From a virus, in the IMG/VR virus record IMGVR_UViG_3300046005_002624, positions 1-20,635 of that record: 20,635 nt of DNA. The stretch is one strand, 5' to 3'. The position numbers and the translations under genes were made by a program. Under the pieces are notes generated by a model. That model did not search any database and had not been told where the DNA came from. It saw only the letters and a program-made list of their open reading frames with translations. Shown one piece after another: positions 4,466 to 19,892 of the stretch; the stretch's first letter is position 1, and each line of letters opens with the position of its first letter.

Positions 4466-4906
4466 ATGTGGAAATATAATGGTGAAGAAATCACTGACAT
4501 TGATCAGTTCCCATACGGCACCTTTGGTTTTGTTTATAGGGTCCTCAATAAAAAAACTGGCAAAGCTTATATTGGTAAAAAAGTGCTGTACCACAGCGTA
4601 AAGAAAAAACTTACCAAAAAAGAACTAGCAGAAATAGAGGGACAAGGACGCCGTCCTTCATATCGTCTTACAGTAAAAGAATCAGATTGGAAAACCTATT
4701 GGGGTTCAAATAAAATTCTCATTGAAGAATTAAAAACCAACTCAGACGACTTTGAACGTTCTATTATTCAACTGGCAAAAGACAAAAAACAACTTACGTA
4801 TTTTGAAACAAAATATTTGTTTGTTTATTCTGTACTTGAAAAACCAGAAGAATTCTACAACGACAATATTTTAGGAAAATTTTATACTAAAGATTTTGCA
4901 GGGTAA
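4466..4906 (+). CDS. GIY-YIG-like phage endonuclease (146 aa)
   Basis: The 146-residue protein has the layout of the GIY-YIG nuclease fold. GFVYRVLN at 21-28 occupies the first strand (F22-V-Y24 in place of G-I-Y), then AYIGKK at 34-39 gives the YIG element. A conserved ESDWKTYWGSNKIL follows at 72-85, and a Glu (E114 in TYFETKYLF) could bind the catalytic metal. The ESDWxxYxGS segment is a signature I recall from small T4-like phage endonucleases related to the Seg group. Such enzymes cut DNA as free-standing homing endonucleases or in host DNA degradation. It lies 23 nt before the primase gene, a position where homing enzymes often occur. The first element is degenerate, so the catalytic assignment is likely but not certain. 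Confidence 0.65.
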   Translation: MWKYNGEEITDIDQFPYGTFGFVYRVLNKKTGKAYIGKKVLYHSVKKKLTKKELAEIEGQGRRPSYRLTVKESDWKTYWGSNKILIEELKTNSDDFERSIIQLAKDKKQLTYFETKYLFVYSVLEKPEEFYNDNILGKFYTKDFAG

Positions 4907-6670: not shown

Positions 6671-7474
6671 ATGATCAGTCTTGTTCAATTACTGGAAGAA
6701 CTCTCCTCTAGACCCAAAGCCATCATACTTGCTGGTGCTCCGGGTGCAGGGAAGAGTTCTTTAGTTGACGATTATATAAAAGATTTCAACTTAAAAGTAT
6801 TAAACATAGACGATTACTATAAAGAAAATCTAAAAAATGCAGGAGTTTCTTTCGATTTAAAGAATGCAGGTAAAGAGTCTAGAAGCAAAGCCGCAACAGG
6901 TATGCAACAGGCTATCAAAACCTACAATGAAGCTTTAAATCAAGCTATAGATAATAAAGAAAACATTGTATTAGACAATGCTTCTGGTTCACTTAAAAAT
7001 GTAGCTGAACTTAGAAATAGACTCATGTTAGCTGGTTACGATGTTTTAATGGTGTACGTTCACGCTTCACTTAAAAAAGCACTTAAAAGAAATGAAAAAC
7101 GTTTTGACAAATCTAAAGGCCTTGAAAGAAGCCTTCCACCAGACATTGTCCTTAAAACTTGGGCAAATGTCACAAAAAATTACGCCAAGTATAGAGATAT
7201 TTTTGGCGACAATTTTATCTCGGTTGTAAACGATGATAAACCTTTTACATTATCATCTTACGAAGACATAAAAAAATTATACGTAGACCAGTTTGCACCT
7301 AAAGACTCAACACCCAAATCAGCAAAGGATCAAGCGTATGAAGATAAAATAGATGCTGAAAATAAGGCATTTATAGAGGATTGGAACGCAAACATGAAAA
7401 GTCAAGATATTTTAGATAATTCTGTATCTAAAGAAGAAGTAAAGACTAAAATAAAAGATTTCCTTCAATCATGA
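6671..7474 (+). CDS. zeta-toxin-like P-loop kinase (267 aa)
   Basis: The protein is a small nucleoside/sugar-kinase-like P-loop protein of the zeta toxin/polynucleotide kinase group. A hydrophobic strand KAIILA leads into Walker A GAPGAGKSS at residues 22-30. NIDDYYKENL follows about 25 residues later, as in zeta toxins. A second strand NIVLDNASG may hold the substrate-side acidic residue. A lid-like Arg/Lys segment (KRNEKRFDKSKG) comes next. The C-terminal about 50 residues are charged and probably helical. Zeta toxins phosphorylate UDP-N-acetylglucosamine, while phage relatives may act on nucleic-acid ends. No antitoxin gene is adjacent, which argues against a classic toxin-antitoxin pair. 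An extra N-terminal helix, MISLVQLLEELSS, precedes the kinase strand. It overlaps the next gene by 4 nt. Confidence 0.7.
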   Translation: MISLVQLLEELSSRPKAIILAGAPGAGKSSLVDDYIKDFNLKVLNIDDYYKENLKNAGVSFDLKNAGKESRSKAATGMQQAIKTYNEALNQAIDNKENIVLDNASGSLKNVAELRNRLMLAGYDVLMVYVHASLKKALKRNEKRFDKSKGLERSLPPDIVLKTWANVTKNYAKYRDIFGDNFISVVNDDKPFTLSSYEDIKKLYVDQFAPKDSTPKSAKDQAYEDKIDAENKAFIEDWNANMKSQDILDNSVSKEEVKTKIKDFLQS

Positions 7475-8715
7475 TAGTAAATGTTACTTGTTTTAATTGT
7501 GGTCATCCTTGGCAAACAGATACTTTAACAGATCCTGATCCTTATTTATGTCATAATTGTGGTTTAGACAATCAAACCATGAAATATGAACCCGCAAAAT
7601 TAGAAGCTTGGAAAAAAAGTCAAATGAAAGAAGAAAAAATACCCGGTGGAAAAGCTAAAGGTTTAACTTTACAAGATTTAGCAAAATATCATAAAATGCC
7701 CCTTCAATCTATAAAGAAAAAATTAGATCAGGGTATCAAAACAGAAATGGAGCATACTACAGACAAAAGTATAGCTCGCGAAATTGCTATGGATCACATT
7801 TATGAAGATCCTAACTACTATTCTAAATTAAAGAAGATTGAGACTAAAGAATTAGAAGAAGATGGCCAAAAAACATCCGATAAAAATATGGATGATTACA
7901 AAAAGCAAAATAACCCAAGTGGTAAAGTAAAAGATCCATTTGGTTTAAGTCAATTTGCTCGTGAGTTAGCTATGGGTTTAGAAGAAGCAGATCCTAAAAC
8001 TGGTACAGGCAAAAAACCAAAAGGATCAGGTCGTAGACTCTATACAGATGAAGACCCATCAGACACTGTCTCTATAAAATTTAAAACAAAAGAAGATATT
8101 GTAGATACACTTAACTCAGCTTCTTTTAAAGCCAAATCACACGCTCGCCAGTCTCAGGTTATTAACTTGATTCACCAGCGTGTTAGAGCGGCTTACCAAA
8201 ACGCTAAAGACCCTGAGACTAAAGCCCGTTTAAAGCGTGGTTTAGATTATATAGAAACACGTAAAGAAGCATCTAAGGAAAAAACACAGCGCCTTCAAAA
8301 ACTTAAAGAAGCTGAAGGATCAGCAGTACCTTATGGATCAGGATATAAAAAATTTATCCCAGAACTCTCACAATACATGTACGAGAATGGGATGAATATT
8401 AAACCTTTCCCTAGTGTAAAATTTATAGAAGATGATGAAGTAAATGCAAAAGATCCTTTAGGCATGACTGCCTTCTATGATCCTGCAAATGCTACAATTG
8501 TTTTATATACAATGGGGAGACACCCAAAAGATATATTACGTTCATTCGCCCACGAGATGGTGCATCACGAACAAAATTTAAATGGTGAAGTTGGAACTGG
8601 TAAAATAAAAACTACAAATACTCACGAAGATGATTATTTAGAGCAAATCGAAAGAGATGCTTACGAAAAAGGAAACATCATGCTTCGTAAATGGACAGAT
8701 AGCATAAAAAAATAG
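7471..8715 (+). CDS. zinc ribbon + DUF5661-like + HEXXH metallopeptidase fusion (414 aa)
   Basis: This is a multidomain protein. Residues 1-35 form a zinc ribbon (C7-x2-C10, C27-x2-C30). Residues about 65-125 contain a helical module with EMEHTTDKSIAREIAMDHIY followed by a Pro-Tyr-Tyr segment, resembling family DUF5661 as I remember it. Residues about 130-290 are a charged, Lys-rich linker with helical stretches. The C-terminal part holds a zincin motif, AHEMVHHEQN, with H361, E362 and H365. A downstream LEQIERDAYEKG supplies a likely third ligand (E391 or E394), as in gluzincin-type peptidases. Such single-domain peptidases cut proteins in the virion or in the host. The first ATG overlaps the kinase gene by 4 nt. 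No export signal is seen. The metallopeptidase call is firm and the target is unknown. Confidence 0.65.
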   Translation: MIVNVTCFNCGHPWQTDTLTDPDPYLCHNCGLDNQTMKYEPAKLEAWKKSQMKEEKIPGGKAKGLTLQDLAKYHKMPLQSIKKKLDQGIKTEMEHTTDKSIAREIAMDHIYEDPNYYSKLKKIETKELEEDGQKTSDKNMDDYKKQNNPSGKVKDPFGLSQFARELAMGLEEADPKTGTGKKPKGSGRRLYTDEDPSDTVSIKFKTKEDIVDTLNSASFKAKSHARQSQVINLIHQRVRAAYQNAKDPETKARLKRGLDYIETRKEASKEKTQRLQKLKEAEGSAVPYGSGYKKFIPELSQYMYENGMNIKPFPSVKFIEDDEVNAKDPLGMTAFYDPANATIVLYTMGRHPKDILRSFAHEMVHHEQNLNGEVGTGKIKTTNTHEDDYLEQIERDAYEKGNIMLRKWTDSIKK

Positions 8716-8719
8716 TTAT

Positions 8720-9298
8720 ATGAAAGATAATGTTTTAAAAAAAGAATTTAAAGAAAAAGATGTACAACGTCTCCGAAATCTTGTTACTAAAAAATATGGT
8801 GATAAAGTAAGTACATCTGTTGGTTTTACTAAAGAAAATTCTGAGGTACACAAAGAGGGTGATATTTGGGAATTAGACGGGAAAACCTGGACTATTAAAG
8901 ATGGTATTAAACAAAATGTTACAAAACTGGATAAAGCACGTGAAGCTGTCAACTTTCCTCTTTTTTGCCCTTCATGTAAAAAGAAAATGAAACCCCATTT
9001 AGACAAAAAATGGTTTCAACTATACCAACACTGCTTTGATTGCCAAATAGACTTTGAAACCCACCTCAGAACTTCAGGGCAATGGGAAGCTTATCAAAAG
9101 AAAGTTAACAACCAGGGCTTAGATGGTGTTATGAAGGAATTTGAAGAATGGATAAACGAAGAAATCCAAAACCAAGATAATCAATCCTTTATTACAGAAG
9201 CGGGTGACGTTGAAAAATGGGTTGGTTCAAGTAAAAATTTACTCTTAAAACAGAAGGAAGACACTATTAAATTCCTGCAAAGTTTAAAGAAAGACTAA
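8720..9298 (+). CDS. zinc-ribbon phage protein with C-terminal (L/I)xE site (192 aa)
   Basis: The 192-residue protein carries a treble-clef or ribbon-type zinc site: C83-x2-C86 in FCPSCKKKMK, then C105-x2-C108 in HCFDCQIDFE. The latter is followed by a conserved-looking LRTSGQWEAYQ. I recall this CPxC...DKxxW...CFDC...LRxxGxWE pattern from unannotated T4-like phage proteins. The N-terminal 75 residues are charged, with a small beta-like stretch (WELDGKTWTIKDG). A site FITEAGD (cut would fall after E160) separates a short C-terminal tail. Function is unknown. Nucleic-acid binding or a structural zinc role would fit. It starts 4 nt after the metallopeptidase gene and ends at an ATATTTAT motif, so it closes the 6671-9298 unit. 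Confidence 0.6.
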   Translation: MKDNVLKKEFKEKDVQRLRNLVTKKYGDKVSTSVGFTKENSEVHKEGDIWELDGKTWTIKDGIKQNVTKLDKAREAVNFPLFCPSCKKKMKPHLDKKWFQLYQHCFDCQIDFETHLRTSGQWEAYQKKVNNQGLDGVMKEFEEWINEEIQNQDNQSFITEAGDVEKWVGSSKNLLLKQKEDTIKFLQSLKKD

Positions 9299-9305
9299 TA
9301 TTTAT
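9298..9305 (+). promoter_or_regulatory. ATATTTAT motif at the stop of the zinc-ribbon gene
   Basis: The octamer starts on the last base of the TAA stop (reading TAATATTTATA) and ends 11 nt before the ATG at 9317. It includes TATTTATA. It marks the apparent beginning of the 9317-12831 gene group. Confidence 0.4.
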
Positions 9306-9316
9306 AAGAAAACTAC

Positions 9317-9550
9317 ATGAAGTCTAATCCGGGAGACATCTTTAGAAACATTAACCGAAACGTTGGAGTAGGTCGATTTTCTAAAGACACTTACGTAAAG
9401 CAACATGTTCCACCTCCTCCACCCCAAGAAGAGGTAAAAGAAGAAATTATAGAAGAAACTAAACAAGAAGAAAATGAACAATTTCGACGTAGCGAAGTGG
9501 AACAAACAAAGATACCTAGCAGAGGCAAATCTACTAGAAAGCACAGCTGA
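9317..9550 (+). CDS. small Pro/Glu-rich hypothetical protein (77 aa)
   Basis: The 77-residue protein begins MKSNPGDIFRNINRNVGVGR and has a VPPPPPQEE proline run. An acidic Glu/Lys stretch (residues 38-52) and a basic Arg/Lys tail follow. No fold is recognised, and the second half looks disordered. It is supported by the motif 11 nt before its start and by filling a space otherwise without a gene. The last 77 nt overlap the start of the next gene in another frame, so one stretch of DNA encodes two plausible sequences. It may be a linker or scaffold peptide. A ribosomal frameshift joining the two frames is an alternative, though I see no clear slippery heptamer. Confidence 0.5.
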   Translation: MKSNPGDIFRNINRNVGVGRFSKDTYVKQHVPPPPPQEEVKEEIIEETKQEENEQFRRSEVEQTKIPSRGKSTRKHS

Positions 9551-10049
9551 TCAAGTAGCCACAGAAATCAATAAAGCAATCGATGTAGTAGATAAAAATC
9601 TATCTTACATGGATTTTGCTTTAGCCGTAGCTAAAATTTTAAAAGAAGAATACGGCTCTCAAAATTTTGGAGCATTTATGAATGTTTTAAATGCTGAGTT
9701 AGGTATGAATGAGACTTTAAATGAAGCTGAATATACTTGGAAAAATGATAGAGAATTACCTAACCAAGAAGGTAGAGCTATAGGTGAACTCTCAGATCTC
9801 ATATATGATTTAGAAAATTATATAAGTCCTAATATTAGAGGTTTAAGAAAAACTAAAACACTTCAAGGATTAGCAACAAGTTTAGCAGCTGATGAAATTA
9901 GAGGATTTGTATCTGTGTATAGAGATGATTTAGCTGGAATTAAAGTTTTTCAACAAGGTAATAATGCTACTTGGGAACCAATTTGGAAAGATAAAGAACC
10001 AACAAGCATATCAGGACCAGACCCAAGAGGAGCAGGCTCACTTGATTAA
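9474..10049 (+). CDS. putative internal-head protein with NNFD-type presequence (191 aa)
   Basis: The protein begins MNNFDVAKWNKQRYLAEA, matching in every key position two other proteins in the window (starts 12098 and 13235). The pattern is M[ND]NF[DN][VIL]xx[WY]xxxxxLxEA, with a possible cleavage after E17. A second site, TLNEAEY, lies near residues 81-87. The rest is helical and acidic (ATEINKAIDVVDKNLSYMDF) with a C-terminal domain of unknown type ending in a disordered PDPRGAGSLD. In T4, internal head proteins carry a short N-terminal capsid-targeting peptide removed after (L/I)xE by protease gp21. The match here suggests, but does not prove, the same route. The presequence is encoded entirely inside the 77-nt overlap with the upstream gene. 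Confidence 0.6.
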   Translation: MNNFDVAKWNKQRYLAEANLLESTADQVATEINKAIDVVDKNLSYMDFALAVAKILKEEYGSQNFGAFMNVLNAELGMNETLNEAEYTWKNDRELPNQEGRAIGELSDLIYDLENYISPNIRGLRKTKTLQGLATSLAADEIRGFVSVYRDDLAGIKVFQQGNNATWEPIWKDKEPTSISGPDPRGAGSLD

Positions 10050-10058
10050 AAATATTAT

Positions 10059-12098
10059 ATGGAACCTTTAGGACTTAAAATAAAAAAAGCTTTATCCCGT
10101 TTAAAACAAACAGACAACTATCTCTTCAGAAAACCTGAAAGAGAATGGGATTACGATGACTTAAGCTTAGTTAAATCATTTTTAAAGACTGCAAGAGTAG
10201 AAGAAGATTATACAATGGAAAATTTAAATAAAATACAAGAATTTTTTTCTAAACCTTTAGAAGAAATGATGTCTTTAGATGATCAAGCTAAAGCATATTA
10301 TCTTGAAAAATTTAAAAAAGGTGAAATTAGTTCTCTACCTGAAGACCCTAAAGCAGCATTTTTAAATCAAATGACGAAAGACGAAATGGAAAAAGACGCA
10401 GCTCAATATCGTAGAGAAACAGGTTTAGAAGAAGTTAGTGCTGAATACTCAAGAAAAAATAAAAGACCTATTAAAGTAGGTGATATTGTAGGTAATACAG
10501 TTCAAGGCTTCGATTTCAAAGTATTAGCTATTCAAGATGATAAGATGAAAGTTAAAAATACTATAACCGGTAAAGAATCTATTACCGATATAGATAATAT
10601 GCGTCTTTTATCTACAGATAACTCAGTAAAAGAAGGTGGAAAATGGGGTTATCAAGAAGCAGCAAAAAATATGATCAAATTCCTCCAAAGCCAATTAGAT
10701 AATATGGGTGTGGAATATGATATGGATCCTAAAAGTCTATCTCAACCATTTACAGCAATTTATAAACCTGAAAATCAATCAGAGGAATTGAATGCTAAAT
10801 TTGAAGATTTCATCGAAAAAGCTAATCTTAAAAGTGTTGTAAAAACATCAATGAAAGAAGGTGAATTAAATGAAGCTTATGTTCCTTCAAATATTGCTGA
10901 ATTTGCTAAAAGAAAAGGTGTTTCATCTTTAGTTAAAACTGTAGCGGGTTGGGCTGAAAAAGTAGGTAAAAGAATTGTCGGTGGAACCGCAATTGGTAAA
11001 AACTACGACACTCTTATTTTAGATATGACCTTCCAAGGTTCAGAAATTCGTATTAATACAGAATACGAAACTGTAGAATTATACGATGAACCAGTTCGCA
11101 CATTTGCTCAGTTTAAGAGTGTATACGAAGAAAATCAAGAAGAAAATTTAGACGAAGCTACCAACGATCCAAGAATAAGTAATCCTAAATTTGGTCCCGC
11201 TCCTAAACAATTTGCAGATTTAAGAGCAAAATTAGGTGACGAATCACTTTTGGATAAAATCCAAATGATTAATGTTAATACTTTAAGAGAACTTTTAGAC
11301 GAATTAGATTCATATAATCTTGAAGAGGATAAAAACAGCACCTACAACGAATATTCAGAAGTAGGATATAAAAAAGTAGGTGAAGCAATGGGTGGTCAAT
11401 TAGACGAAAGATACTTTATTGAAGTATCAGTTCGTGATGCTCGTAAAGCATTAGATATATTTAGAGATCAATATAGTGATTTTCCTATTGAACTATATGG
11501 TTCAAATGTTTACGCCTCTAACAACTTAAATGGTATTTACGATTTTTACTACGATTTAATGTCTCAAGATATTGAAGTCCTCGACAGTAGTGATTTTGAT
11601 GAAGACGATTTTGAAGAAGAAGATTACGAAGAAACCGACTACATGAAAAGACGTTCTGGTGATTATAGTGAGGATGAATTTGAACAATCTGACTATATGA
11701 GACGTAGAATGGATGAGGTAACTAAAGGATTTGGAGATAGAATTTCGGCTGAAACTTTCTCTAAATTAAAAGGTAAAATGGTAAATTATTATGGTAACAG
11801 ATATAAAGTATTAGATTCTGACGAATATACCATAACCATTCAAGATGAAGATGGAGAAACTAGAACTATAAATCTCAATCAATTCATCCAGAAAGGACTT
11901 ATCCCAGAATTAAAGAAAAAACTTCAAGAAACTATTAAATTAGGTGAAGGAATGATATATGAGGAACTTTGCCCTGCTGGTAAAGCATATATTAAAAGAA
12001 GAAAAGCAGCTGGTGAAAAATCATCCGCTTATCTCTCAGGTCGCGCTGTTAAAGTATGTAAAGGGCAAATGTCTGGTAGATCTAAAAAGAAAAAATAA
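10059..12098 (+). CDS. large modular protein, possible processed polyprotein (679 aa)
   Basis: This is the largest protein here and looks assembled from small modules. Residues about 133-195 resemble an SH3/KOW-like barrel (RPIKVGDIVGNTVQGFDFKV). A helical segment lies at about 200-265. A mixed domain starting at about 274 (YVPSNIAEFAKRKGV) has a beta-rich end. A helical domain at about 367-430 is followed by an acidic region at about 500-555 containing a duplicated (E/D)-x-DYM[KR]RR unit (D527 and D545). Another SH3-like module lies at about 560-615. A basic 49-residue tail (about 631-679) has two Cys and ends SGRSKKKK. Module borders coincide with sites such as ELNEA (269-273), NLDEA (363-367), KLQET and KLGEG (621-631). 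These resemble prohead-protease sites. No enzyme motif is visible. It overlaps the next gene by 1 nt (TAATG). Confidence 0.6.
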   Translation: MEPLGLKIKKALSRLKQTDNYLFRKPEREWDYDDLSLVKSFLKTARVEEDYTMENLNKIQEFFSKPLEEMMSLDDQAKAYYLEKFKKGEISSLPEDPKAAFLNQMTKDEMEKDAAQYRRETGLEEVSAEYSRKNKRPIKVGDIVGNTVQGFDFKVLAIQDDKMKVKNTITGKESITDIDNMRLLSTDNSVKEGGKWGYQEAAKNMIKFLQSQLDNMGVEYDMDPKSLSQPFTAIYKPENQSEELNAKFEDFIEKANLKSVVKTSMKEGELNEAYVPSNIAEFAKRKGVSSLVKTVAGWAEKVGKRIVGGTAIGKNYDTLILDMTFQGSEIRINTEYETVELYDEPVRTFAQFKSVYEENQEENLDEATNDPRISNPKFGPAPKQFADLRAKLGDESLLDKIQMINVNTLRELLDELDSYNLEEDKNSTYNEYSEVGYKKVGEAMGGQLDERYFIEVSVRDARKALDIFRDQYSDFPIELYGSNVYASNNLNGIYDFYYDLMSQDIEVLDSSDFDEDDFEEEDYEETDYMKRRSGDYSEDEFEQSDYMRRRMDEVTKGFGDRISAETFSKLKGKMVNYYGNRYKVLDSDEYTITIQDEDGETRTINLNQFIQKGLIPELKKKLQETIKLGEGMIYEELCPAGKAYIKRRKAAGEKSSAYLSGRAVKVCKGQMSGRSKKKK

Positions 12099-12538
12099 TG
12101 GATAATTTTGATATAAAAAGATACTTACAAGAAGGTAAGCTTTATGAAGCTTTAATGGCTTGTCCTCTCCCAACTCAAGACCTTGAGTTAAATACTCAAA
12201 ACAGGGACTCAGCTATTAAAGCAGATTATATCAAATATGGTCCTTTAAATGTTGACGAACCTGGAGATTTCTGGGACGAGTTAGCTGAACATTGGGATAC
12301 AACAGTTGAAGCAGCTAAACAATCACTTTGTGGTAATTGTGCTGCTTTTGATATTTCTCCTAGAATGGAAGATTGTATGCCTGGTCCTCTATCAGATGAT
12401 GATGGAAGATTAGGATATTGCTGGATGCATAGTTTTAAATGCCATTCAGCTCGTACTTGTAGAACATGGGCTAAAGGTGGTCCTATTGTAAAAGATACTA
12501 TCTCTTACGAATGGCAAGAACGTAAAGGAGAAAAATAA
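12098..12538 (+). CDS. Cys-rich putative metal-binding protein with NNFD-type presequence (146 aa)
   Basis: The N-terminus MDNFDIKRYLQEGKLYEA aligns without gaps to the starts of the proteins at 9474 and 13235, with LYEA at residues 15-18 and an additional LQEG at 10-13. The C-terminal half has a compact cysteine set: C78-x2-C81, C93, C108, C115 and C121, in the pattern CGNCAAF, then GYCWMHSFKCHS, then CRTWAKGGPI. I recall similar CGNCAAF/CxTWxxGGPI proteins as uncharacterised proteins of marine T4-like phages. Six Cys plus nearby His suggest two metal sites or an iron-sulfur cluster. No partner enzyme is obvious. The gene is joined to both neighbours by 1-nt TAATG overlaps, so it is tightly co-translated. 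Confidence 0.65.
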   Translation: MDNFDIKRYLQEGKLYEALMACPLPTQDLELNTQNRDSAIKADYIKYGPLNVDEPGDFWDELAEHWDTTVEAAKQSLCGNCAAFDISPRMEDCMPGPLSDDDGRLGYCWMHSFKCHSARTCRTWAKGGPIVKDTISYEWQERKGEK

Positions 12539-12831
12539 TGACCCACGAACGTCTACAAGAGCTAATTTCAGAGTCACTACGCGACTGGTTCAAAAAAGAG
12601 GACTGGGTGCGTATTGATACTCAAGGTAATATTACAGGCCCTTGTGGTACTATGAAAAAAGGTGATGCAACTACACGTTGCTTACCTCGTAAAAAAGCTC
12701 AATCGTTATCTAAAGCCGAACGTGCTAAAACATCTCGTAAAAAAGCAGCAGCATCACGTAAAGGTAAACAATTTGTTTCTAACACAGAAAAAGCAAAATA
12801 CAAAAAAGGAACATATCAGTCCAAAAAATAA
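12538..12831 (+). CDS. small very basic protein, likely DNA-binding (97 aa)
   Basis: The 97-residue protein starts with a short helix, MTHERLQELISESLRDWF, that contains ISE-S at residues 10-13. A central segment WVRIDTQGNITGPCGTMKKG with two Cys (GPCGT and TRCLP) follows. It ends in a Lys/Arg/Ala-rich tail (SKAERAKTSRKKAAASRKGK) resembling histone-like or DNA-condensing tails. I recall the GPCG...ATTRCLP arrangement in unannotated phage proteins. If the first 12 residues are removed, the mature product would be a small polycation suited to binding packaged DNA. The A-rich end of the upstream gene (ggagaaaaataatg) includes a possible GGAG ribosome site. No antisense or alternative frame competes here. 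Confidence 0.6.
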   Translation: MTHERLQELISESLRDWFKKEDWVRIDTQGNITGPCGTMKKGDATTRCLPRKKAQSLSKAERAKTSRKKAAASRKGKQFVSNTEKAKYKKGTYQSKK

Positions 12832-12832
12832 C

Positions 12833-12840
12833 ATATTTAT
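12833..12840 (+). promoter_or_regulatory. ATATTTAT motif after the basic-protein gene
   Basis: The octamer starts 2 nt after the TAA stop and ends only 5 nt before the ATG at 12846. A promoter this close would give a nearly leaderless message, or would mainly serve genes further downstream. Confidence 0.35.
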
Positions 12841-12845
12841 CACAT

Positions 12846-13238
12846 ATGAAACTATCAGACTTTAAACAACTCATCAAAGAAGCCATCGAAGAGGAAGCAG
12901 GGCAAATTGCCGAAGTGCAAAGTATTCCTGTAGACGAGATTGGTAAATTCTTTATCGTTGAAAAACCAGACCAAAACTCAGAAATGGAAGACGTAGTATA
13001 CGAATTAACTCTTCCAGAATTTGCTCTTCAAATTAAAGGTGGCTTAGAAATTAAAAACATCTTAGGTGTTTATAAGCAAAAGTCTGATGCACGTAGAGCG
13101 GGAACTGAGGCGTTAAAAGCTTATCAAGATTCTATTAAAGAAATGAAGGATGCTATGGAAGCTTTCCGTACTGCTAAAAACGAAGTTGCTGATAAGAAAA
13201 AAACAGCTGCTGAACTTATTAAAAAATTAAAGCAATGA
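12846..13238 (+). CDS. helical hypothetical protein with (I/L)KEA presequence (130 aa)
   Basis: The protein begins MKLSDFKQLIKEAIEEEAGQ, an amphipathic helix with IKE-A at residues 10-13. This helix type recurs in other proteins of this block. Residues about 27-80 form a mixed domain (DEIGKFFIVEKPDQ and VVYELTLPEFALQI). Residues about 85-130 are a charged coiled-coil-like helix rich in Lys, Ala and Glu, ending in IKKLKQ. No enzyme motif is visible. It may be a virion-internal or scaffold-type protein, and I know no closer family. It follows an ATATTTAT motif by 5 nt and overlaps the next gene by 4 nt (ATGA). Confidence 0.55.
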   Translation: MKLSDFKQLIKEAIEEEAGQIAEVQSIPVDEIGKFFIVEKPDQNSEMEDVVYELTLPEFALQIKGGLEIKNILGVYKQKSDARRAGTEALKAYQDSIKEMKDAMEAFRTAKNEVADKKKTAAELIKKLKQ

Positions 13239-14635
13239 ACAACTTTAATCTAACAAATTATTTGTCTAAAAATAGACTTACTGAAGCAATTGAGCTTATC
13301 TCATTATACCCTAAAAACCCGGATAAAGTTGCTCAAAAAGTAGCTGATCATTTTACTGAAACAGACGATTTAGGTCTTATATATTCGGTTCAACCTGGAT
13401 CATTACAAATGGACTCTAGAGGAGCTTACTTTGATCTTGATACAAAAGCAGGACCTAATACTCCAGGTGAAGATTGGAAAGATATTAACGGATTTGGTAT
13501 TGAAAATTACTTAGGTGATTACGCTGGTGGCTCTTTTATTATCAAGTCAGAAGAAGGTCTTGATGAAGACTTTTTTGTAATTCGCAATTTAGCTAATAAA
13601 AGTGCTAAAGTGGGTTCAGTAACTCCTGAAGGTGAAGTAATATTCTCAACACAAGAAGATAATCTAGAAGAAGCTATTTCAGGTATGGATGTAGAAAAAA
13701 TGATCAAAACCTATAATATTGGTAAAGACACTAGATTAGTGTTTGTAGGTGATAATAAAACTTATTACGTTAAAAACATAGCACCTGACAGAGAATCTGT
13801 TTTTGTTACTATCGACGGCTCAACAACATTTAAAAAGCCTTTAAGTAAAGTAACTAAAGTAGATGGCAAGATGATTAAAGAAATGAAATCAAATAAAATG
13901 ACAAAAGAAGAATTAAAAGAAATGATTCGTCAAAATATCTTAAACGAATTAGCAGAAGAAATTACTGAAGATTCAGATATGGAATTTGGCGATCCTGATG
14001 TAGGTTTATCTAAATTATACTCTGATTTCTATGAGGGTTTAGAAGAAGCAGAAGAAGAAGTAACAGACGTAGAAAAAGTTGACGTTAATGTTGACGAACC
14101 AGCAGCACCTGCAGCTGAAGAACCTACTCTTACAGATACAGAAAAAGAAATTCAAGGTCACCTTGACCAAGCTCTACAAGCTGCTCAAGAAATAGGCAAC
14201 GAAAAACTCATCCAGCAGATTGGTAACACAATTACCTTCTTTACTCGTGATTTCGTAGTTAAAGAAGCTGAAGGTGATTTAGTAAAAAATATTGGTAAGG
14301 GGTTAGAATATGAAGCAACCAAAGAAATGATTCGTGATTATGCTCAACACCTAATGGATGAAGGATCTTATGATGTTGAGGAATTAGCACAATCATACTT
14401 AGATATGCCCAGATCATTCCCTAGACAATTAGACTACACTTTCTTTAAAAATAACTATGATGATATCTTATCAGTAGCTATGACTGGATTAGGTGAAGGT
14501 AAAAAAGAATACTACAAAGATGCTGAAGCTGATGATGCTGAACATATTGACGCTTTAGAAAAAGACATGAAAGATGATAAAAAATCTTCAATGAATGAAT
14601 CAATGTTTCCATTATTCAAAAAAATAATTAAATAA
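13235..14635 (+). CDS. modular protein with NNFD-type presequence and internal (L/I)xE sites (466 aa)
   Basis: The start MNNFNLTNYLSKNRLTEA carries the same 18-residue pattern as the proteins at 9474 and 12098, with LTE-A at 15-18. Further candidate sites occur at NLEEA (143-147), ELAEE (238-242), GLEEA (268-272) and GLGEG near 425. An internal Met at 222 begins a second presequence-like helix, MTKEELKEMIRQNILNELAE, suggesting a fusion of two once-separate genes. Residues 148-215 resemble a small beta-barrel (TRLVFVGDNKTYYVKNIAPD). Residues about 270-305 are acidic and Pro/Ala-rich, probably a linker. The C-terminal part is helical. No catalytic motif is seen. A polyprotein of internal head modules is the favoured but unproven reading. 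Confidence 0.6.
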   Translation: MNNFNLTNYLSKNRLTEAIELISLYPKNPDKVAQKVADHFTETDDLGLIYSVQPGSLQMDSRGAYFDLDTKAGPNTPGEDWKDINGFGIENYLGDYAGGSFIIKSEEGLDEDFFVIRNLANKSAKVGSVTPEGEVIFSTQEDNLEEAISGMDVEKMIKTYNIGKDTRLVFVGDNKTYYVKNIAPDRESVFVTIDGSTTFKKPLSKVTKVDGKMIKEMKSNKMTKEELKEMIRQNILNELAEEITEDSDMEFGDPDVGLSKLYSDFYEGLEEAEEEVTDVEKVDVNVDEPAAPAAEEPTLTDTEKEIQGHLDQALQAAQEIGNEKLIQQIGNTITFFTRDFVVKEAEGDLVKNIGKGLEYEATKEMIRDYAQHLMDEGSYDVEELAQSYLDMPRSFPRQLDYTFFKNNYDDILSVAMTGLGEGKKEYYKDAEADDAEHIDALEKDMKDDKKSSMNESMFPLFKKIIK

Positions 14636-14637
14636 TC

Positions 14638-14645
14638 TATAAATA
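14638..14645 (+). promoter_or_regulatory. TATAAATA, a T4-late-promoter-like octamer
   Basis: TATAAATA is the exact T4 late promoter consensus and lies in the 19-nt gap upstream of the small histone-like gene, 9 nt before its ATG. In AT-rich DNA one copy is weak evidence. It is noted because it faces the gene direction and is the complement of the recurring motif. Confidence 0.25.
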
Positions 14646-14654
14646 ATCAAAATT

Positions 14655-14828
14655 ATGAACACAACTGAAATTTTCGAAAAAATTGAAGCTTTATACGAAA
14701 CTTTTAAAGCAGAACACGCAGGTAAATCTAAAGCAGCACACGGACGTGCACGTAAAGTTTTAGGTGAAATTAAAAAACTTGTAACTGAATATCGTCAAGC
14801 TTCTGTAGCTGAAGATAAAGCAAAATAA
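14655..14828 (+). CDS. histone H1/Hc1-like DNA-binding protein (57 aa)
   Basis: This 57-residue gene starts at ATG 14655 (MNTTEIFEKIEALYETFKAE). It continues through a basic core GKSKAAHGRARKVLGEIKKL and ends with VTEYRQASVAEDKAK. The pattern of an N-terminal acidic helix, then K-A-A-x-x-R-A-R-K, then an EIKKL-x-x-E-(Y/I)-R helix matches the short histone H1-like (Hc1 family) proteins widespread in Bacteroidota, where they bind and compact DNA. A phage copy could condense its own genome, in the head or after injection, or compete with host nucleoid proteins. It lies between two long genes of the same block. The homology call is from memory of the family pattern. Confidence 0.65.
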   Translation: MNTTEIFEKIEALYETFKAEHAGKSKAAHGRARKVLGEIKKLVTEYRQASVAEDKAK

Positions 14829-14831
14829 ACT

Positions 14832-16571
14832 ATGCTCAACGAACGCAGTCTTACCAAAGCTGAAGAAAAGCGTAAGGAAGAGATCGTAAAAGATCTTAAA
14901 TCCAATAAACGCGAATTTGTCAAGCGTTATGGTAAGGATGCTGAAAGCGTTATGTACGGAACAGCTGTAAAACGTGCTAAAAAACAAGTCAAAGAAATGA
15001 ACGAAAATAGAATTAAAGAAGCTGTTAAAGCAGCTTTAATGAAAAAAGAAGGAGTCAAAGAAGAAAGAATGGAATACTTTGAACCTGAAGATTACGAAGC
15101 AATGAGAGATCTCCAGGACGCTTCTGCTATGATGGACGCTATCGAAGACTTGTATAAAAAAGCTAAGGCGTTAGGGTATGGTCCTGACGTTAAAAAGTTA
15201 GTAGCTGATTTAGACGAAGAGCTAAAAAACCCTAAAAAAGCCGACTTAAATAAAGACGGCGAACTTTCTTCTTATGAAGAAAAACGTGGTGAAGCTATTG
15301 AAAAAGCAATAGCTAAAAAAGGCGTTAAAGAAACTAAAGGACTTAGAAAAATCACTGGTCCTACTGGTGATTCTGAAGTGCAAGCTTTAACCCCACAAGA
15401 AGAAGAAGAATTAAAAAGAGTAGGAGCTAAAGTAACACCTATGGAAGGAAAATACGACCCAGACCAAGCTCAATTAGATGACGAAGATGAAATTTTTATG
15501 TCATATGATGACGAAGGAAGACCTTTAGAAGAAAAAAATATGTCTAAATATAAAGTAGGAGATAAAATCAAATGGAGTTCTCCCAAAGGTGAAGTTGAAG
15601 ATGAAATAGCCGGAATTGATGGTATATATCTTAAATTAAAATCAGGAGGTTCTATTCCTTATCAATCCGTAGTTTCTGAAGATCTTGACTTAGGCCACGA
15701 AGACGACGAACCACACATGATCAAGGGCGAACTATATCGTATTGGAAAATATGCTATGGAGCTTTACCAGATGGTAGATCAATTTGAAGGTATGGGTGAA
15801 GTAGACTTCCCAGCATGGTGGCAAGCTATGATCACAGATGCTGCTTCTAAAATGAGTAAAGCTAAACACTATCTTGATTTCGAACTAAAAGAACCAGAAA
15901 TCGATGCTATGGTAGGTGTTGCTTCTGCCGAAGACGTTATTGATGAAGAAAAAATTAGTGGCGAAGAAAAACTAGCAGCTGCTATTCAAAAAGCATTAAA
16001 CAAAAACAAATCAGCCGACGACCAAAACAACATCAAACAAGCTAGAAAAGCTATGAATGATGGTAATATGGAAGCTGCTAAAAAAATCTTAAAACCATAC
16101 TTAGAAGAAGGTTTACCTAAAGGCTACTGGTCTAAAAAGATTCCTGGAGGTAAAATGGAAGAATCTAACGTAAATGAAAGTTTTTTAGCTGTAAGTACAA
16201 AAGGTGCTATTAAAGATGAAAATTTAGATTCATTTATCTCAAAAATGGAAGCTGCTGGTTATAAGTTAGCTAAAATATTAGGTCCTGAAGATAATCTTTA
16301 TAAAGACCACCCAATCATTGACCACACTTGGACATATGGTTTACCTAAATTTAATGATATTATAGGTCCTATGAAAGATGGAGATCGTTTTAGATACGAA
16401 GATCAAGAAACTTATAATAGAATGTCTTTGGAAGAATCATACGAGAAATTAGTTAAAAAAATCAAAGGTCAAGGTAAATCTGAAAAAGCAGCCAAAGCAA
16501 TTGCCGGTGCTGTAGCAGCATACAAAGCAAAAGGTGGAGGTAAAGGCCCAACTGCTAAACAGAAAAAATAA
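14832..16571 (+). CDS. modular EF-hand-containing phage protein with basic tail (579 aa)
   Basis: This is a mosaic of small domains. Residues 1-55 form a basic helical module (LTKAEEKRKEEIVKDLKSNK, then KRYGKDAESVMYGTA) that I recall as a recurrent phage module. A presequence-like helix NENRIKEAVKAALMKKEG lies near 56-74. A canonical EF-hand loop, DLNKDGELSSYE, spans residues 138-149 with D138, N140, D142, G143, S146 and E149 in the calcium positions. An SH3-like stretch (KYKVGDKIKWSSPKG) starts near 239. Helical domains follow, including WW in DFPAWWQAM and a YGLPKFNDI segment. A basic tail (IKGQGKSEKAAKAIAGAVAA, then GKGPTAKQKK) probably binds nucleic acid. Function is unknown. It overlaps the next gene by 1 nt (TAATG). 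Confidence 0.6.
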   Translation: MLNERSLTKAEEKRKEEIVKDLKSNKREFVKRYGKDAESVMYGTAVKRAKKQVKEMNENRIKEAVKAALMKKEGVKEERMEYFEPEDYEAMRDLQDASAMMDAIEDLYKKAKALGYGPDVKKLVADLDEELKNPKKADLNKDGELSSYEEKRGEAIEKAIAKKGVKETKGLRKITGPTGDSEVQALTPQEEEELKRVGAKVTPMEGKYDPDQAQLDDEDEIFMSYDDEGRPLEEKNMSKYKVGDKIKWSSPKGEVEDEIAGIDGIYLKLKSGGSIPYQSVVSEDLDLGHEDDEPHMIKGELYRIGKYAMELYQMVDQFEGMGEVDFPAWWQAMITDAASKMSKAKHYLDFELKEPEIDAMVGVASAEDVIDEEKISGEEKLAAAIQKALNKNKSADDQNNIKQARKAMNDGNMEAAKKILKPYLEEGLPKGYWSKKIPGGKMEESNVNESFLAVSTKGAIKDENLDSFISKMEAAGYKLAKILGPEDNLYKDHPIIDHTWTYGLPKFNDIIGPMKDGDRFRYEDQETYNRMSLEESYEKLVKKIKGQGKSEKAAKAIAGAVAAYKAKGGGKGPTAKQKK

Positions 16572-17035
16572 TGACAGCTGAAGAACTTAAAGAAAAAATT
16601 AAAGTAGTTGCTCGCCAAGTCTACGGAAAGCCCAAAGGAGCTATCTCAGACTATGGCGAAACAGCTTCTGACGAGCTGACTAAATTTCCTGAATTAAAGG
16701 ACATTTTAGTAAAGCTTATGACAGCAGACTTTAAAGTTTTTGTCGATAGCATCGATTGGGTTGCTCCTAAGCCTACTACGTTTCGTATAAACCTTAAAAA
16801 CGGGCAAACATTCTATCTTATATACACTACTAAGAGTTGGATTGCTCAAATTGAAGGTAAAAAATATTACTTGTTAAACATTAACGAGTTACAAAATGGA
16901 ACAAATGCTATTTCTCGTATTTTAAGATACGGAACTAAAGAAGAAGCAACTGAAACTAAAACCGAAACTACTACAACTGCTACTGAAAAATCTATAGAAA
17001 CTCCGGCAGCCGGTGAAGAAACAGCAGCTGCATAA
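16571..17035 (+). CDS. hypothetical phage protein with disordered acidic tail (154 aa)
   Basis: The protein begins MTAEELKEKIKVVARQVYGK, a short amphipathic helix of the second presequence-like type, but without a clean (L/I)xE site. The central domain (about 30-118) is mixed alpha/beta with strands FRINLKNGQTFYLIYTT and WIAQIEGKKYYLLNI. The last about 35 residues are Thr/Glu/Ala-rich low complexity, ending PAAGEETAAA, probably disordered. No catalytic or metal motif is seen, and I do not recognise the family with confidence. It is joined to the upstream gene by a TAATG overlap, and the next gene follows an ATATTTAT motif. Confidence 0.55.
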   Translation: MTAEELKEKIKVVARQVYGKPKGAISDYGETASDELTKFPELKDILVKLMTADFKVFVDSIDWVAPKPTTFRINLKNGQTFYLIYTTKSWIAQIEGKKYYLLNINELQNGTNAISRILRYGTKEEATETKTETTTTATEKSIETPAAGEETAAA

Positions 17036-17042
17036 TATTTAT
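17035..17042 (+). promoter_or_regulatory. ATATTTAT motif at the stop of the 16571 gene
   Basis: The octamer starts on the last base of the TAA stop (TAATATTTATT) and ends 4 nt before the ATG at 17047. It has the same stop-codon anchoring as the copies at 9298 and 18874. Confidence 0.35.
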
Positions 17043-17046
17043 TATC

Positions 17047-17571
17047 ATGAATTTAACAGATATTTACAAAAATATTCAAGAGGTTAAAGTTGACGACCCT
17101 GAATTAACAGCTCAAATTAAAGAATTTGCAGAATTATCTGACGAGATCGATCAGATAACTGCTAAACTTAAATTATTAGAGAAAAGATATAAGGGTCTAG
17201 AAGAAGTTATTCGTCCTGTTTTAGACGAACTCGACGAGACTAAAGACAAAGCTCTTGAAGTTGAAAATATTCTTGTTACTATCAAGAGAAAAGGCTATGA
17301 AAGAACTTCATTCGCTTATAAAGAAGCTTTAGATTGGGTTAAAGAAAGAATTAACCCAGCCATGAGAAAAATTGTTGACGATTCAATTGAAGCGACAGCA
17401 AAAACATCTCGTATTGCTTCTACAATCGGTGTTCAGAAAATTGAAGAACAAAGTGTTTTAGACAGAATCGTTAATACTCTAAAAGGATATTGGTCTAAAA
17501 TTACTCAAAGATTGAGCGCGGCCAATAATAAACTAAGTAGAGATATAGATGCACTTAAAGCAAAGGTTTAA
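17047..17571 (+). CDS. coiled-coil protein of unknown function (174 aa)
   Basis: The protein is predicted to be almost entirely helical. A long heptad-like region spans about 20-85 (AELSDEIDQITAKLKLLEKR, then LDELDETKDKALEVENI). A second helical domain spans about 95-174 (YKEALDWVKERINPAMRK, then LKGYWSKITQRLSAANNKLS). The start MNLTDIYKNIQEVKVDD includes IQE-V at 10-13, again resembling a short presequence. No catalytic motif or membrane segment is visible. Such proteins can act as scaffolds, spacers or tape-like elements. It follows an ATATTTAT motif and overlaps the next small gene by 23 nt. Confidence 0.6.
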   Translation: MNLTDIYKNIQEVKVDDPELTAQIKEFAELSDEIDQITAKLKLLEKRYKGLEEVIRPVLDELDETKDKALEVENILVTIKRKGYERTSFAYKEALDWVKERINPAMRKIVDDSIEATAKTSRIASTIGVQKIEEQSVLDRIVNTLKGYWSKITQRLSAANNKLSRDIDALKAKV

Positions 17572-17743
17572 TAAATTTGAAAACGAAGTTTACGCTAGAA
17601 TTTTAGATTACTGGTTAGAACTTAGTTTGGGTTATATTGATTTTAATAAGGAAGCCGATAAAAATCTTATCAAGCATTTAGGGCTTCTAGAATCAGATTA
17701 CTTTATACTAGAAAAATTCTACAACAATAGGTTGGCATCTTAA
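17549..17743 (+). CDS. small hypothetical protein (64 aa)
   Basis: The 64-residue protein is rich in Leu, Tyr, Phe and charged residues, begins MHLKQRFNKFENEVYARILD and ends KFYNNRLAS. It looks helical, with no recognised family and no membrane segment. The ATG lies inside the coiled-coil gene, giving a 23-nt overlap in another frame, which is plausible translational coupling. Its stop codon forms the loop of a rho-independent terminator, so the gene ends the transcription unit. That geometry, plus its filling of an otherwise empty stretch, favours a real gene. Confidence 0.55.
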   Translation: MHLKQRFNKFENEVYARILDYWLELSLGYIDFNKEADKNLIKHLGLLESDYFILEKFYNNRLAS

Positions 17744-17760
17744 AGATGCCTTCTTATTTT
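17734..17760 (+). terminator. rho-independent terminator with the stop codon in its loop
   Basis: GGCATCT (17734-17740), loop TAA (17741-17743) and AGATGCC (17744-17750) form a perfect 7-bp stem. A T-rich tail, TTCTTATTTT, follows. The loop is exactly the stop codon of the preceding 64-residue gene. The triloop is small but stable stems of this kind are used as phage terminators. Confidence 0.75.
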
Positions 17761-17767
17761 CAAGTAG

Positions 17768-18874
17768 ATGAATAATACTATGGCTAATAAAGAATTATCA
17801 AGTCAGATTACTGACAGAATAGTTACTGTAGATCAGTTACTGAACGCACACGATATCTCATTAGAGTATTGGGAAATAGAAAAACAAATTGTTAACTCTT
17901 GGGAAGTTGGAGCTAAAACACCAGATGGTGTAATTGCTACAACCCCTCTCTTCCAAGTAAAAATTTGGCTTAGAAGCAAAATTGAATCTAAAAGATTAGA
18001 TGAAATTAAAGCCGAGTTTATTGAAGATTTACAAGCTCTATCTCCGGTTGTTAAAAAAATTGAATATAAAAATGTAAGTAGTAAACCTAAAAAAATGGTT
18101 GAAATTAACATTTTTGACCTTCACTTGGGTAAATTTGCTTGGAGAGAAGAAACTAATCAGGATTACGATTTAAAAATTGCAATGGGTATTTTTAACGATT
18201 GCATTGATCATTTTGTTGAGTCTGTTAAAAATGTAAACGTTGATAGATTTGTAGTTCCAATTGGCAACGATTTTTTTAACTCGGATTATTCTTACCCTTA
18301 CAACCGTACTACAAAAGGTACACCACAGGAAAACGATACTCGTTGGCAACACATTTTTAGAAAAGGCCGTCAATTATTAATTGAGAATATCAACAAGCTT
18401 ACTCAAATCGCTCCAGTTGATATTATTATGATCCCGGGTAACCACGATTACGAGAAAATTTTCTATTTAGGTGACTCATTACAGGGTTGGTTTCACAACA
18501 ACGAGAATGTAAACGTGAATAACCTTGCAGCTCCTAGAAAATACTACAAATACGAAGATATTTTATTAGGTTTTACTCACGGAGATAAAGAAAAAGTAAA
18601 TGACCTTCCTCTTATTATGGCTCAAGAAAACCCATTAGAATGGGGAGCTACAAAATATAGAGAATTTCATTTAGGACATATCCACCATAAACAGGAAATC
18701 AAATACAAATCAGCCCACGAATATAGTGGTGTTATAATTCGTTATATGAGCTCACTTTCAGGAAACGACGCTTGGCATTACAGCCATGGCTACGTTGGTT
18801 CAAAGCGCTCAGCTGAATGTCTTGTTTGGGATGGTAAAAAGGGTCTAGATCAGCAAATTTACTTCACTTTATAA
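17768..18874 (+). CDS. calcineurin-like metallophosphoesterase (368 aa)
   Basis: All five blocks of the calcineurin-like phosphoesterase fold are visible. D117-x-H119 lies in FDLHLGK, GND (166-168) in PIGNDFFNSD, G224-N-H-D227 in PGNHDY, H271-G-D in THGDKEK, and G303-H-x-H306 in HLGHIHHK. These bind two metal ions and hydrolyse phosphomono- or diesters. The N-terminal about 110 residues form a separate, possibly helix-turn-helix-like domain (VTVDQLLNAHDISLEYWEIE), which may give DNA or partner binding. The preferred substrate is unknown; nucleotide, DNA-end or cyclic-dinucleotide hydrolysis are all possible. A second in-frame ATG at 17780 (MANKEL) is an equally reasonable start, as neither has a Shine-Dalgarno sequence. 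It lies just after a terminator. Confidence 0.8.
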   Translation: MNNTMANKELSSQITDRIVTVDQLLNAHDISLEYWEIEKQIVNSWEVGAKTPDGVIATTPLFQVKIWLRSKIESKRLDEIKAEFIEDLQALSPVVKKIEYKNVSSKPKKMVEINIFDLHLGKFAWREETNQDYDLKIAMGIFNDCIDHFVESVKNVNVDRFVVPIGNDFFNSDYSYPYNRTTKGTPQENDTRWQHIFRKGRQLLIENINKLTQIAPVDIIMIPGNHDYEKIFYLGDSLQGWFHNNENVNVNNLAAPRKYYKYEDILLGFTHGDKEKVNDLPLIMAQENPLEWGATKYREFHLGHIHHKQEIKYKSAHEYSGVIIRYMSSLSGNDAWHYSHGYVGSKRSAECLVWDGKKGLDQQIYFTL

Positions 18875-18881
18875 TATTTAT
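18874..18881 (+). promoter_or_regulatory. ATATTTAT motif at the stop of the phosphoesterase gene
   Basis: The octamer starts on the last base of the TAA stop (TAATATTTATG) and ends 5 nt before the ATG at 18887. It precedes a new run of small phage genes. Confidence 0.35.
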
Positions 18882-18886
18882 GGCAT

Positions 18887-19534
18887 ATGAGTGCCATGGA
18901 TAAACAAAAAATCTCAGAACAGAAAAGCTGCAGTTGTGGTTGTGGGGGTTGCTCTAAAGCTCCTATGTTAAATGAACAACTCGTAGCACGCACTGGGCTG
19001 TCTGAAGGTATACTTTACCATATAGACAATAAAAAACCGCTTACAGAACATCTATTTCGTGCCGGGTCCGAGAAATATTTTAAATTGTGGGAAGAAGCAA
19101 GAATGCTTTACTCTCGTGATCTTTTAGAAGTAAAAGGTGATGATTTAGATATTCTTATAGAAACAGACTTAGGACATTTTGGAGAATATAATGGTCAAAG
19201 AGTTCCTTTAGATTTTATCTTTGAAGAAATAGAAGAAATAAACGAGGCTGATAAGAAAAAGAAAAACCCTCCAATTGGTAAACCAAAACGTGGTGGCTCT
19301 AAAAAATTCTACGTTTATGTAAGAAAACCAGGTGGCGGAATTAAAAAAGTATCATTTGGTGATACAACAGGTTTATCAGCTAAGATAAATAACCCACAAG
19401 CACGTAAAGCGTTTTCTGCTCGACACGATTGCCCCAATAAAAAAGATAGAACAAAAGCCTCATATTGGAGCTGCCGTTTACCACGTTATGCTAAACTTTT
19501 AGGACTCAAATCAAACTTCTCAGGATTCTGGTAA
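18887..19534 (+). CDS. phage-conserved protein with Cys cluster and basic C-terminal domain (215 aa)
   Basis: The N-terminus has a dense cysteine cluster CSCGCGGC (C15, C17, C19, C22), likely metal-binding. Residues about 30-110 are an acidic mixed domain (ILYHIDNKKPLTEHLFRAGS). A candidate protease site INEA (118-121) leads into a basic domain: KPKRGGSKKFYVYVRKPGGG, VSFGDTTGLSAKINNPQARK, then FSARHDC and SYWSCRLPRYAKLLGL. I recall this C-terminal domain (RGGxKKFYVYV, VSFGDTTGL, ARHxC, YWSCRLPRYA) as a strongly conserved unannotated domain in T4-like marine phages, often at the C-terminus of larger proteins. Two ARHDC/YWSC cysteines could bind a metal. Function is unknown; a virion or DNA-associated role fits the basic charge. 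Confidence 0.65.
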   Translation: MSAMDKQKISEQKSCSCGCGGCSKAPMLNEQLVARTGLSEGILYHIDNKKPLTEHLFRAGSEKYFKLWEEARMLYSRDLLEVKGDDLDILIETDLGHFGEYNGQRVPLDFIFEEIEEINEADKKKKNPPIGKPKRGGSKKFYVYVRKPGGGIKKVSFGDTTGLSAKINNPQARKAFSARHDCPNKKDRTKASYWSCRLPRYAKLLGLKSNFSGFW

Positions 19535-19535
19535 T

Positions 19536-19892
19536 ATGGAAAAATTAATCTCTTACTTATTTCACTCTCAAACTCAAGTGCATATTTTTCACTTGCAAAC
19601 TACTTCATTTGCTGAACATAAAGCATTACAAGGTTATTATGAGGGTATTGACGATTTAGTTGATGGTTTAGTAGAAACTTATCAAGGTAAATATGGTATT
19701 ATAAACGGGTATACTACTTTTCAAATGTTAGGTTATACTAATAAACAACAAATAATTACTTATTTTGAAGCTTTAGCTAAAACAGTTGGTATTTTAAGAC
19801 AACCTGTAGAAGATTCATACTTACAAAATCAGATCGATGAAATCATGACTTTGATTGAGTCTACTCTTTATAAATTAAAATATTTGAATTGA
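19536..19892 (+). CDS. ferritin-like DUF5856-like phage protein (118 aa)
   Basis: The 118-residue helical protein has the sequence style of a small ferritin/Dps-like four-helix family. FHSQTQVHIFHLQTTSFAEH lies in the first helices. LQGYYEGIDDLVDGLVETYQ comes next, followed by GKYGIINGY. A further helix pair follows (YFEALAKTVGILRQ and IDEIMTLIESTLYKLKYL). His, Glu and Asp residues at ferritin-like spacings (H25, H28, E34, H35, E44) could bind metal. I recall this QxHIFHLQTxSxAEHKAL pattern from a phage family filed as DUF5856, usually 100-130 residues. Iron storage is not shown; it may be a structural relative only. It begins 1 nt after the previous stop and overlaps the next gene's TTG start by 4 nt. 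Confidence 0.6.
   Translation: MEKLISYLFHSQTQVHIFHLQTTSFAEHKALQGYYEGIDDLVDGLVETYQGKYGIINGYTTFQMLGYTNKQQIITYFEALAKTVGILRQPVEDSYLQNQIDEIMTLIESTLYKLKYLN

Follow-up and report, generated by a model that had tools for sequence, protein, structure and literature searches.

A shared N-terminal peptide on three unlike proteins of a T4-like phage as a probable capsid-targeting sequence

Introduction

The subject of this study is a set of three genes in a 20,635-nucleotide stretch of viral DNA (IMG/VR record IMGVR_UViG_3300046005_002624, positions 1 to 20,635; hereafter the window), which lie on the plus strand at 9474-10049, 12098-12538 and 13235-14635 and encode proteins that share a short N-terminal peptide, termed tag A here. 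An earlier reading of the same DNA (the original prediction) had quoted the three N-termini, aligned them without gaps, called the proteins behind them unrelated and proposed that the shared segment loads them into the capsid. The N-termini are present as quoted in these open reading frames, the gapless alignment stands, with F4, W/Y9 and L15-x-E17-A18 in the three proteins, and the bodies behind the tag gave no Pfam match at E 0.01 and PHROG matches that all lay at E ≥0.06. It is considered highly probable, from sequence comparison, that the peptide common to the three N-termini serves as a capsid-targeting sequence (CTS), most likely cut by a prohead protease.

The T4 CTS is described in the available extracts of PMC9026906 as 10-19 residues long, with residues 4 and 7 acting in targeting and residues 8 and 10 in processing, and as being cut by the protease gp21 after (L/I)xE; the same extracts describe the T4 internal proteins (IPs) as basic and carry the idea that the CTS lets T4-like phages take up varied proteins. 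The T-even internal proteins form, in the extracts of PMC3012670, a highly diverse set that is conserved in the CTS only. The principle is therefore not new and is known from T4; what appear to be new are the tag sequences, the breadth of their reuse and a second tag (tag C) that resembles part of a scaffold-like protein. No description of these tags was found in the partly available open PMC literature, which includes few subscription journals, and the strings MQKLAG, FDLKKYL, FDLRKYL and FDLKKFL were not found in it either.

Results

The three tagged proteins

When residues 2-18 of the 25 called window genes were compared in all pairs, the top three pairs were the mutual pairs of the three tagged proteins, with scores of 40, 32 and 31 against 20 for the next best pair. 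A score of 40 was reached in none of 3000 residue shuffles, and a score of 31 was reached by the best pair in seven of 3000.

The 9474-10049 gene encodes a 191-residue protein without a Pfam match, a predicted head cargo, the tag of which (9474-9524, plus strand) is a divergent form, MNNFDVAKWNKQRYLAE, with a predicted cut after E17 (LAE-A). Its homologue L083, 48% identical over residues 4-86, keeps MNNFDVAKWNKRRYLAEANLLES, and the nearest tag by eye is the start MENNFDIHKWQAKFLKES of gp069 from the Flavobacterium phage vB_FspM_immuto (immuto). The Cys-rich protein of 146 residues at 12098-12538 carries the canonical form MDNFDIKRYLQEGKLYE (12098-12148, plus strand), with predicted cuts after E12 (LQE-G) and/or E17 (LYE-A), and the invariant columns of its family all lie at M20 or later. 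The placement of LxE-A at residues 17/18 of all three proteins, as originally given, holds, with the correction that this Cys-rich protein has an earlier [LI]xE ending at residue 12. The third tag, MNNFNLTNYLSKNRLTE (13235-13285, plus strand; predicted cut after E17, LTE-A), opens a modular protein of 466 residues at 13235-14635, which contains more [LI]xE sites and an internal segment, KMTKEELKEMIRQNILNE, at about residues 221-238 that resembles the possible N-terminal tag B described below. In relatives of this protein, G is preceded by tags like MAKFDFKKAILENKATFFGSLNE or MTDFNYKKYLTENKLTQTTKLRAGILAE, and these relatives gain or drop entire modules, some close to LxE sites.

The junction between tag and body

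The original prediction would have been contradicted by homologues in which the first 18 residues are continuous with the body. This is not the case in the Cys-rich family, which keeps its body while the tag changes. M1, L15 and E17 alone are nearly invariant in the tag, which varies between the NFDLKKYLAEGKLYE type, MGIELKKKKQLIERLNKRLLSE and a form ending FIKE, and members with a changed tag remain at least 71% identical over their length. Among 78 usable homologues from 80 loci, the junction [LI]xE is kept in 75; the other three read LYK and have retained the residue-12 site as LAE. In the 13235 family, a tag ending LTE, LNE or LAE stands immediately before GQFSW in eight of nine relatives inspected. 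The GQFSW module is missing from the remaining relative and from the protein of the window, and their sequences differ after LNE and LTE, respectively. Gap edges in this family fall near [LI]xE in 18 of 76 instances against 12.4 expected, a weak excess.

Recurrence of tag A on other bodies

An all-against-all comparison of N-termini was performed for 1076 proteins of eight related records, two near-duplicate records being excluded. It gave 78 pairs scoring at least 46 without detected body homology, compared with two for interior control windows. The cut motif was present on both sides in 28 of these pairs, on one side in 22 and on neither in 28; part of the pairs without any motif seem to be homologues missed by BLAST, the MDILEKFL proteins being a probable example.

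The DNA pattern for M-x-N-F-D-L-K/R-K-Y/F-L was then scanned over IMG/VR, where counts are lower bounds from 80 listed loci. These loci hold at least 94 matches, with an earlier in-frame ATG in seven of the 94, and some single loci have two to four tagged genes. With one open reading frame below 50 residues dropped, 93 proteins of at least 50 residues were left, and these fall into at least 70 body families (BLAST E 1e-3, beyond residue 26). The tag, which had been proposed for a search of related phage contigs, thus recurs there on bodies without detected likeness. A [LI]xE motif lies within residues 9-34 in 92 of the 93, and E12 is kept in 67 of the 70 family representatives, though it is outside the search pattern. 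The second [LI]xE of the representatives is mostly at 17-18 or 24, after which conservation fades, the information from residue 20 on being 0.3-0.9 bit. Two forms prevail: E12-G13 (n = 36), with a second site in 35 and Glu (10) or Asn (7) as the most frequent next residue, and E12-N13 (n = 27), with a second site in 20, most often at residue 24 (13), and Ala (8) as the most frequent next residue. Complete bodies measure 69-324 residues (median 138). The [LI]xE density of the tag A bodies, 0.0126 per residue, shows no enrichment over shuffled sequences (0.0129), in contrast to that of the scaffold-like protein given below.

A Pfam search of 69 of the 70 representatives gave one clear match, to DUF5872, a family of unknown function. 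Six further matches at E 0.004-0.01, among them a Thoeris-inhibitor model at 0.0076, were left as chance, and two suspected ADP-ribosyltransferases and one HAD-like tagged protein gave nothing in Pfam at E 0.01.

In 84,980 bacterial and archaeal genomes, the tag A pattern was found in eight stretches. In five of them no [LI]xE follows the block, and their genomes gave no S77 protease match; the other three have [LI]xE, and two of their three genomes have S77. We read the latter three stretches as phage contigs that were binned together with host sequences. Narrow tag hidden Markov models, trained on pattern-selected matches, found tag A in the 12098 protein and not in the 9474 or 13235 protein, so that divergent tags are undercounted. 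The motif alone does not mark cargo, since N-terminal [LI]xE[AGS] in the parent contig described below (18 of 175 genes) is only about twofold above interior windows (mean 9.4, maximum 18 in 300 draws). A protein of this contig that we read as sliding clamp-like has LNEA at residue 21 and may be a chance case.

The parent contig, its head genes and the protease

The source is a T4-like phage of water bacteria. The window lies in the 170,105-base IMG/VR contig IMGVR_UViG_3300046010_015054 (G001), to which 11 of 11 probes (60 bases, one per 2 kb) matched in a single colinear run and which encodes each of the three tagged proteins with 100% identity to the window copy. Its opening 40 bases are repeated 1,257 bases short of the opposite end, with the same small gene at both ends, and from this recurrence we take it to be near-complete; the ends are not identical along their whole length. 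All 175 genes found by a simple caller are on one strand.

Downstream of the window, on the same strand, the contig encodes proteins that are assigned as terminase large subunit and portal from the gene order of immuto. They are followed by a core-like protein, the S77 protease, a scaffold-like protein of acidic character and a capsid protein of the T4 type. The window itself ends short of the protease gene. A gp21-like protease, which the original prediction had proposed to seek in the rest of the genome, is thus encoded beside the scaffold-like and capsid genes. Its GELDHP and SSRG align with GELNHP and SSRG of T4 gp21, and GEL(D/N)HP and SSRG are present in all eight aligned proteases, that of T4 among them; the two motifs presumably hold the catalytic His and Ser. 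The [LI]xE density of the scaffold-like protein is 0.041, against 0.025 shuffled.

The S77 protease was found in 11 of 12 records having the Cys-rich protein and in 10 of 20 tag-pattern records. Many of the latter are fragments, and of the five above 100 kb four have the protease; one record, G012, belongs to both sets. The exact tag pattern occurs in 11 of 13 uncultured records searched, G001 being among the non-matching ones because its tags deviate from the pattern. In two of the 11 records the protease match is followed after 87 bases by the start of a tag, and in nine the nearest tag is about 6-27 kb upstream of the match; all 18 tag sites in these 11 records share the strand of the protease.

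A cultured relative

With the capsid protein of immuto (Immutovirus), the capsid protein has 54% identity, and four immuto records were the only named-phage records to match the tag A or C peptides (tblastn, E up to 10). Megablast of window positions 8000-20000 against named phages gave no match. Shared by immuto and the phage group of the window are tag A, seen on four immuto proteins, tag C, a scaffold-like protein and the protease, each immuto record containing four tag A places and two tag C places; it differs in being cultured, and the annotation of the stretch examined does not mention the tag. The tagged gene gp069 (75 residues) lies between the protease gene gp070 and the scaffold-like gene, and gp076, gp077 and gp092 have the NFDLKKFLVENKL form of tag A. 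The available extracts of a paper on Baltic Flavobacterium phages name other LMO8 phages and contain neither the word immuto nor mass spectrometry.

A second tag class

The second tag, tag C (RMQKLAGIITE), matches the C-terminus of the scaffold-like protein. In G001, G002, G010, G012 and immuto, the scaffold-like protein closes with R(M/W)QKLAGII and no more than two further residues; weaker forms stand in G003 and G011, and the ends in G004 and G006 are different. A scan with the pattern MQKLAG-x-I-(T/N)-E, again with counts that are lower bounds from 80 listed loci, gave at least 84 matches, of which 72 are in the first 30 residues (from the first in-frame ATG), seven are internal and five are near the C-terminus. 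The 70 N-terminal carriers of at least 50 residues listed comprise at least 47 body families. Among the 12 non-N-terminal copies listed, LNE precedes six, and ITE follows in all by virtue of the pattern used. In L312, L335, L351, L353 and L371, tag C is internal or terminal between NES and ITE, and the proteins start with an IRESI segment.

We infer that tag C may bind the same partner as the scaffold C-terminus. As a putative copy of that peptide, it would let its cargo enter the head by mimicking the scaffold. Whether this T4-like group, with a Flavobacterium phage as its cultured member, loads a large interchangeable cargo by several tags, with entry by scaffold mimicry and with internal tag C copies cut out as linkers of polyprotein cargo, is in our judgement evenly poised.

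Discussion

The features read from sequence are a modular tag, a conserved cut motif, swaps of body and tag, a protease encoded in the same phages and the location of tagged genes within or close to head gene clusters. Tag recurrence on unlike bodies, the protease and the tag/body swaps support the capsid-loading reading first proposed for the three window proteins, and the tagging is wider than proposed: further genes possibly carry a tag, residue 12 offers another site, and there is a second class of tag. During head assembly, tag A would dock its protein on the prohead scaffold core, and the gp21-type prohead protease would cut the tag after (L/I)xE, at residue 17 or 12. The cut would free the mature protein inside the head, where it would be packed together with the DNA, and the protein would probably be ejected into the host. 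Unrelated genes swap tags, and such exchange would give the phage group a large, changing cargo set.

Several observations weigh against this reading. Ten of the 20 tag-bearing records have no S77 match, eight of them being given as shorter than 100 kb, and the strand shared with the protease is weak evidence because all 175 genes of G001 are on one strand. At the capsid protein position nearest to that of the T4 cut, several relatives have VVE or VTE in place of [LI]xE. Ten of the 70 representatives are without [LI]xE ending at residues 15-30 (nine of these keep E12), and Ala or Gly is often not the residue after the last site, Glu being commonest in the G13 form (10 of 35). The tag A bodies lean acidic: 45 of 70 are below pI 5.5 and 13 are above 8, with a median of 4.79, and those of the window lie at 4.4-4.8. 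This excess is modest, as acidity is also common among the proteins of the phages themselves, with 285 of 538 below pI 5.5 in three of these phages (median 5.35). In addition, the three tagged proteins of the window, taken whole with their tags, have an [LI]xE density of 0.021-0.026 against 0.009-0.014 shuffled, about 1.5-2 times the shuffled value, so that they are possibly cut more than once. A structure model of the 12098 protein from 39 sequences was too poor for use (mean predicted local distance difference test score 50.9), and virion proteomics or cleavage data for this phage group were not found.

Among the other explanations, an uncut tag that docks proteins to the prohead core or shell, with LxE as part of the binding surface, is the least improbable, though we hold it to be unlikely. 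The near-invariance of E12 (67 of 70 representatives, nearly as conserved as the fixed residues) would suit it, as would the match of tag C to the scaffold's own C-terminus, which is a context of binding and not of cutting; however, different tags on one body share the junction [LI]xE, for which pure binding has no need, and an S77 protease is co-encoded. Considerably less probable is a destination other than the head, such as the tail, a replication compartment or a membrane. By itself the tag does not reveal where it leads, and the single clear Pfam match among the 69 scanned bodies is to a family of unknown function, but the head gene cluster, or the region upstream of it, is where the tagged genes are situated, and their cut motif belongs to the head protease. 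In addition, the bodies show no significant enrichment of hydrophobic segments (4 of 70 against 17 of 585, Fisher p 0.27).

The bodies might instead be one family that has diverged past recognition and retains its N-terminus as the best conserved part. Their small size and acidic leaning fit such an origin, which is nevertheless very improbable given at least 70 groups at BLAST E 1e-3, the range of 69-324 residues among complete bodies and the Cys-rich family, which swaps its tag yet stays at least 71% identical over its length. Still less credence is given to duplication of a gene start that was retained for its role in initiating translation and not for the peptide. The position of the pattern at gene starts agrees with this, but 51 distinct 30-nucleotide starts occur among the 70 representatives, with synonymous changes at most codons, the three window copies also have several synonymous codon differences among them and no common upstream sequence was seen in the 20 of 70 upstream stretches inspected. 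The reading of tag A as a CTS, probably cut by the prohead protease, is accordingly preferred.

Like the CTS of T4 IPI, IPII, IPIII and Alt, which is processed by gp21, tag A is a short N-terminal peptide that is common to differing bodies and has an aromatic residue at position 4. T4 ipII and ipIII start MKTYQEFIAE-A and ipI starts MKTFKEFTSTTTPVSTITE-A, i.e. tags of 10 and 19 residues with IAE-A and ITE-A, and tag A shares with ipII and ipIII the order aromatic-I-A-E before the cut and a gp21-type protease. Aligned by eye, F4, Y9, L10 and E12 of tag A line up with the functional positions of T4. The N-terminus of 10-20 residues ending (L/I)xE is likewise present, some relatives having 24 residues to the last site. 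The differences are the sequence itself, a first site two residues later, a second site often at 17-24, many more body families, acidic-leaning bodies and more than one tag class. As a set, the tag A bodies do not show the basic mature protein typical of T4 internal proteins and are therefore not filed as homologues of IPI-III. In the phiKZ-like phage SPN3US, the available extracts of PMC5694885 report identical N-termini, MANFVKSKLARESVE, with a protease motif on the head proteins gp53 and gp54; unlike tag A, several propeptides there exceed 100 residues, and gp53 and gp54 are paralogues and not unrelated bodies.

Many genes in uncultured T4-like phages have no known function, and a readable tag would mark, by sequence alone, those whose products travel in the virion and reach the host as infection begins. 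In T4, this is the stage at which anti-restriction and host take-over proteins act. The likeness of tag C to the scaffold offers a direct guess at the binding partner of the tag, and tags A and C would add new candidate signals by which selected proteins could be loaded into phage heads.

Other features of the window

Three further N-termini on the plus strand may be related signals. A possible tag B, MKLSDFKQLIKE, precedes A13 at 12846-12881 and pairs with the N-termini of proteins with other bodies, chiefly the MKSTDFKKIIKEA family, of which the immuto member adjoins baseplate genes; it is less specific than tags A and C. A possible N-terminal cut motif, ISE-S, lies at 12538-12573 in a Lys-rich protein of 97 residues (MTHERLQELISE), the G003 relative of which starts MDINRLQEIISES. 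A possible short tag, MNLTDIYKNIQE, at 17047-17082 pairs with MYKLTDLYKQLKE of a G003 protein and is held with low confidence.

The remaining genes noted are also on the plus strand. The product of 4466-4906 carries a PHROG label of NAD synthetase, which is doubtful because a homing endonuclease family matched as well. The gene at 3101-4450 encodes a low-complexity SGTSGSSG protein, probably structural, and its repeat probably accounts for the long open reading frames on the minus strand opposite. The product of 6671-7474 is a zeta-toxin-like P-loop kinase (Pfam E 1e-15), the domain of which is preceded by the short extension MISLVQLLEEL. In the product of 7471-8715, AHEMVHH, read as a zincin-like metallopeptidase motif, is in the C-terminal part after an LKE-A site, and the module recurs in a G002 protein with a IPGGFKPPTVGHF start.

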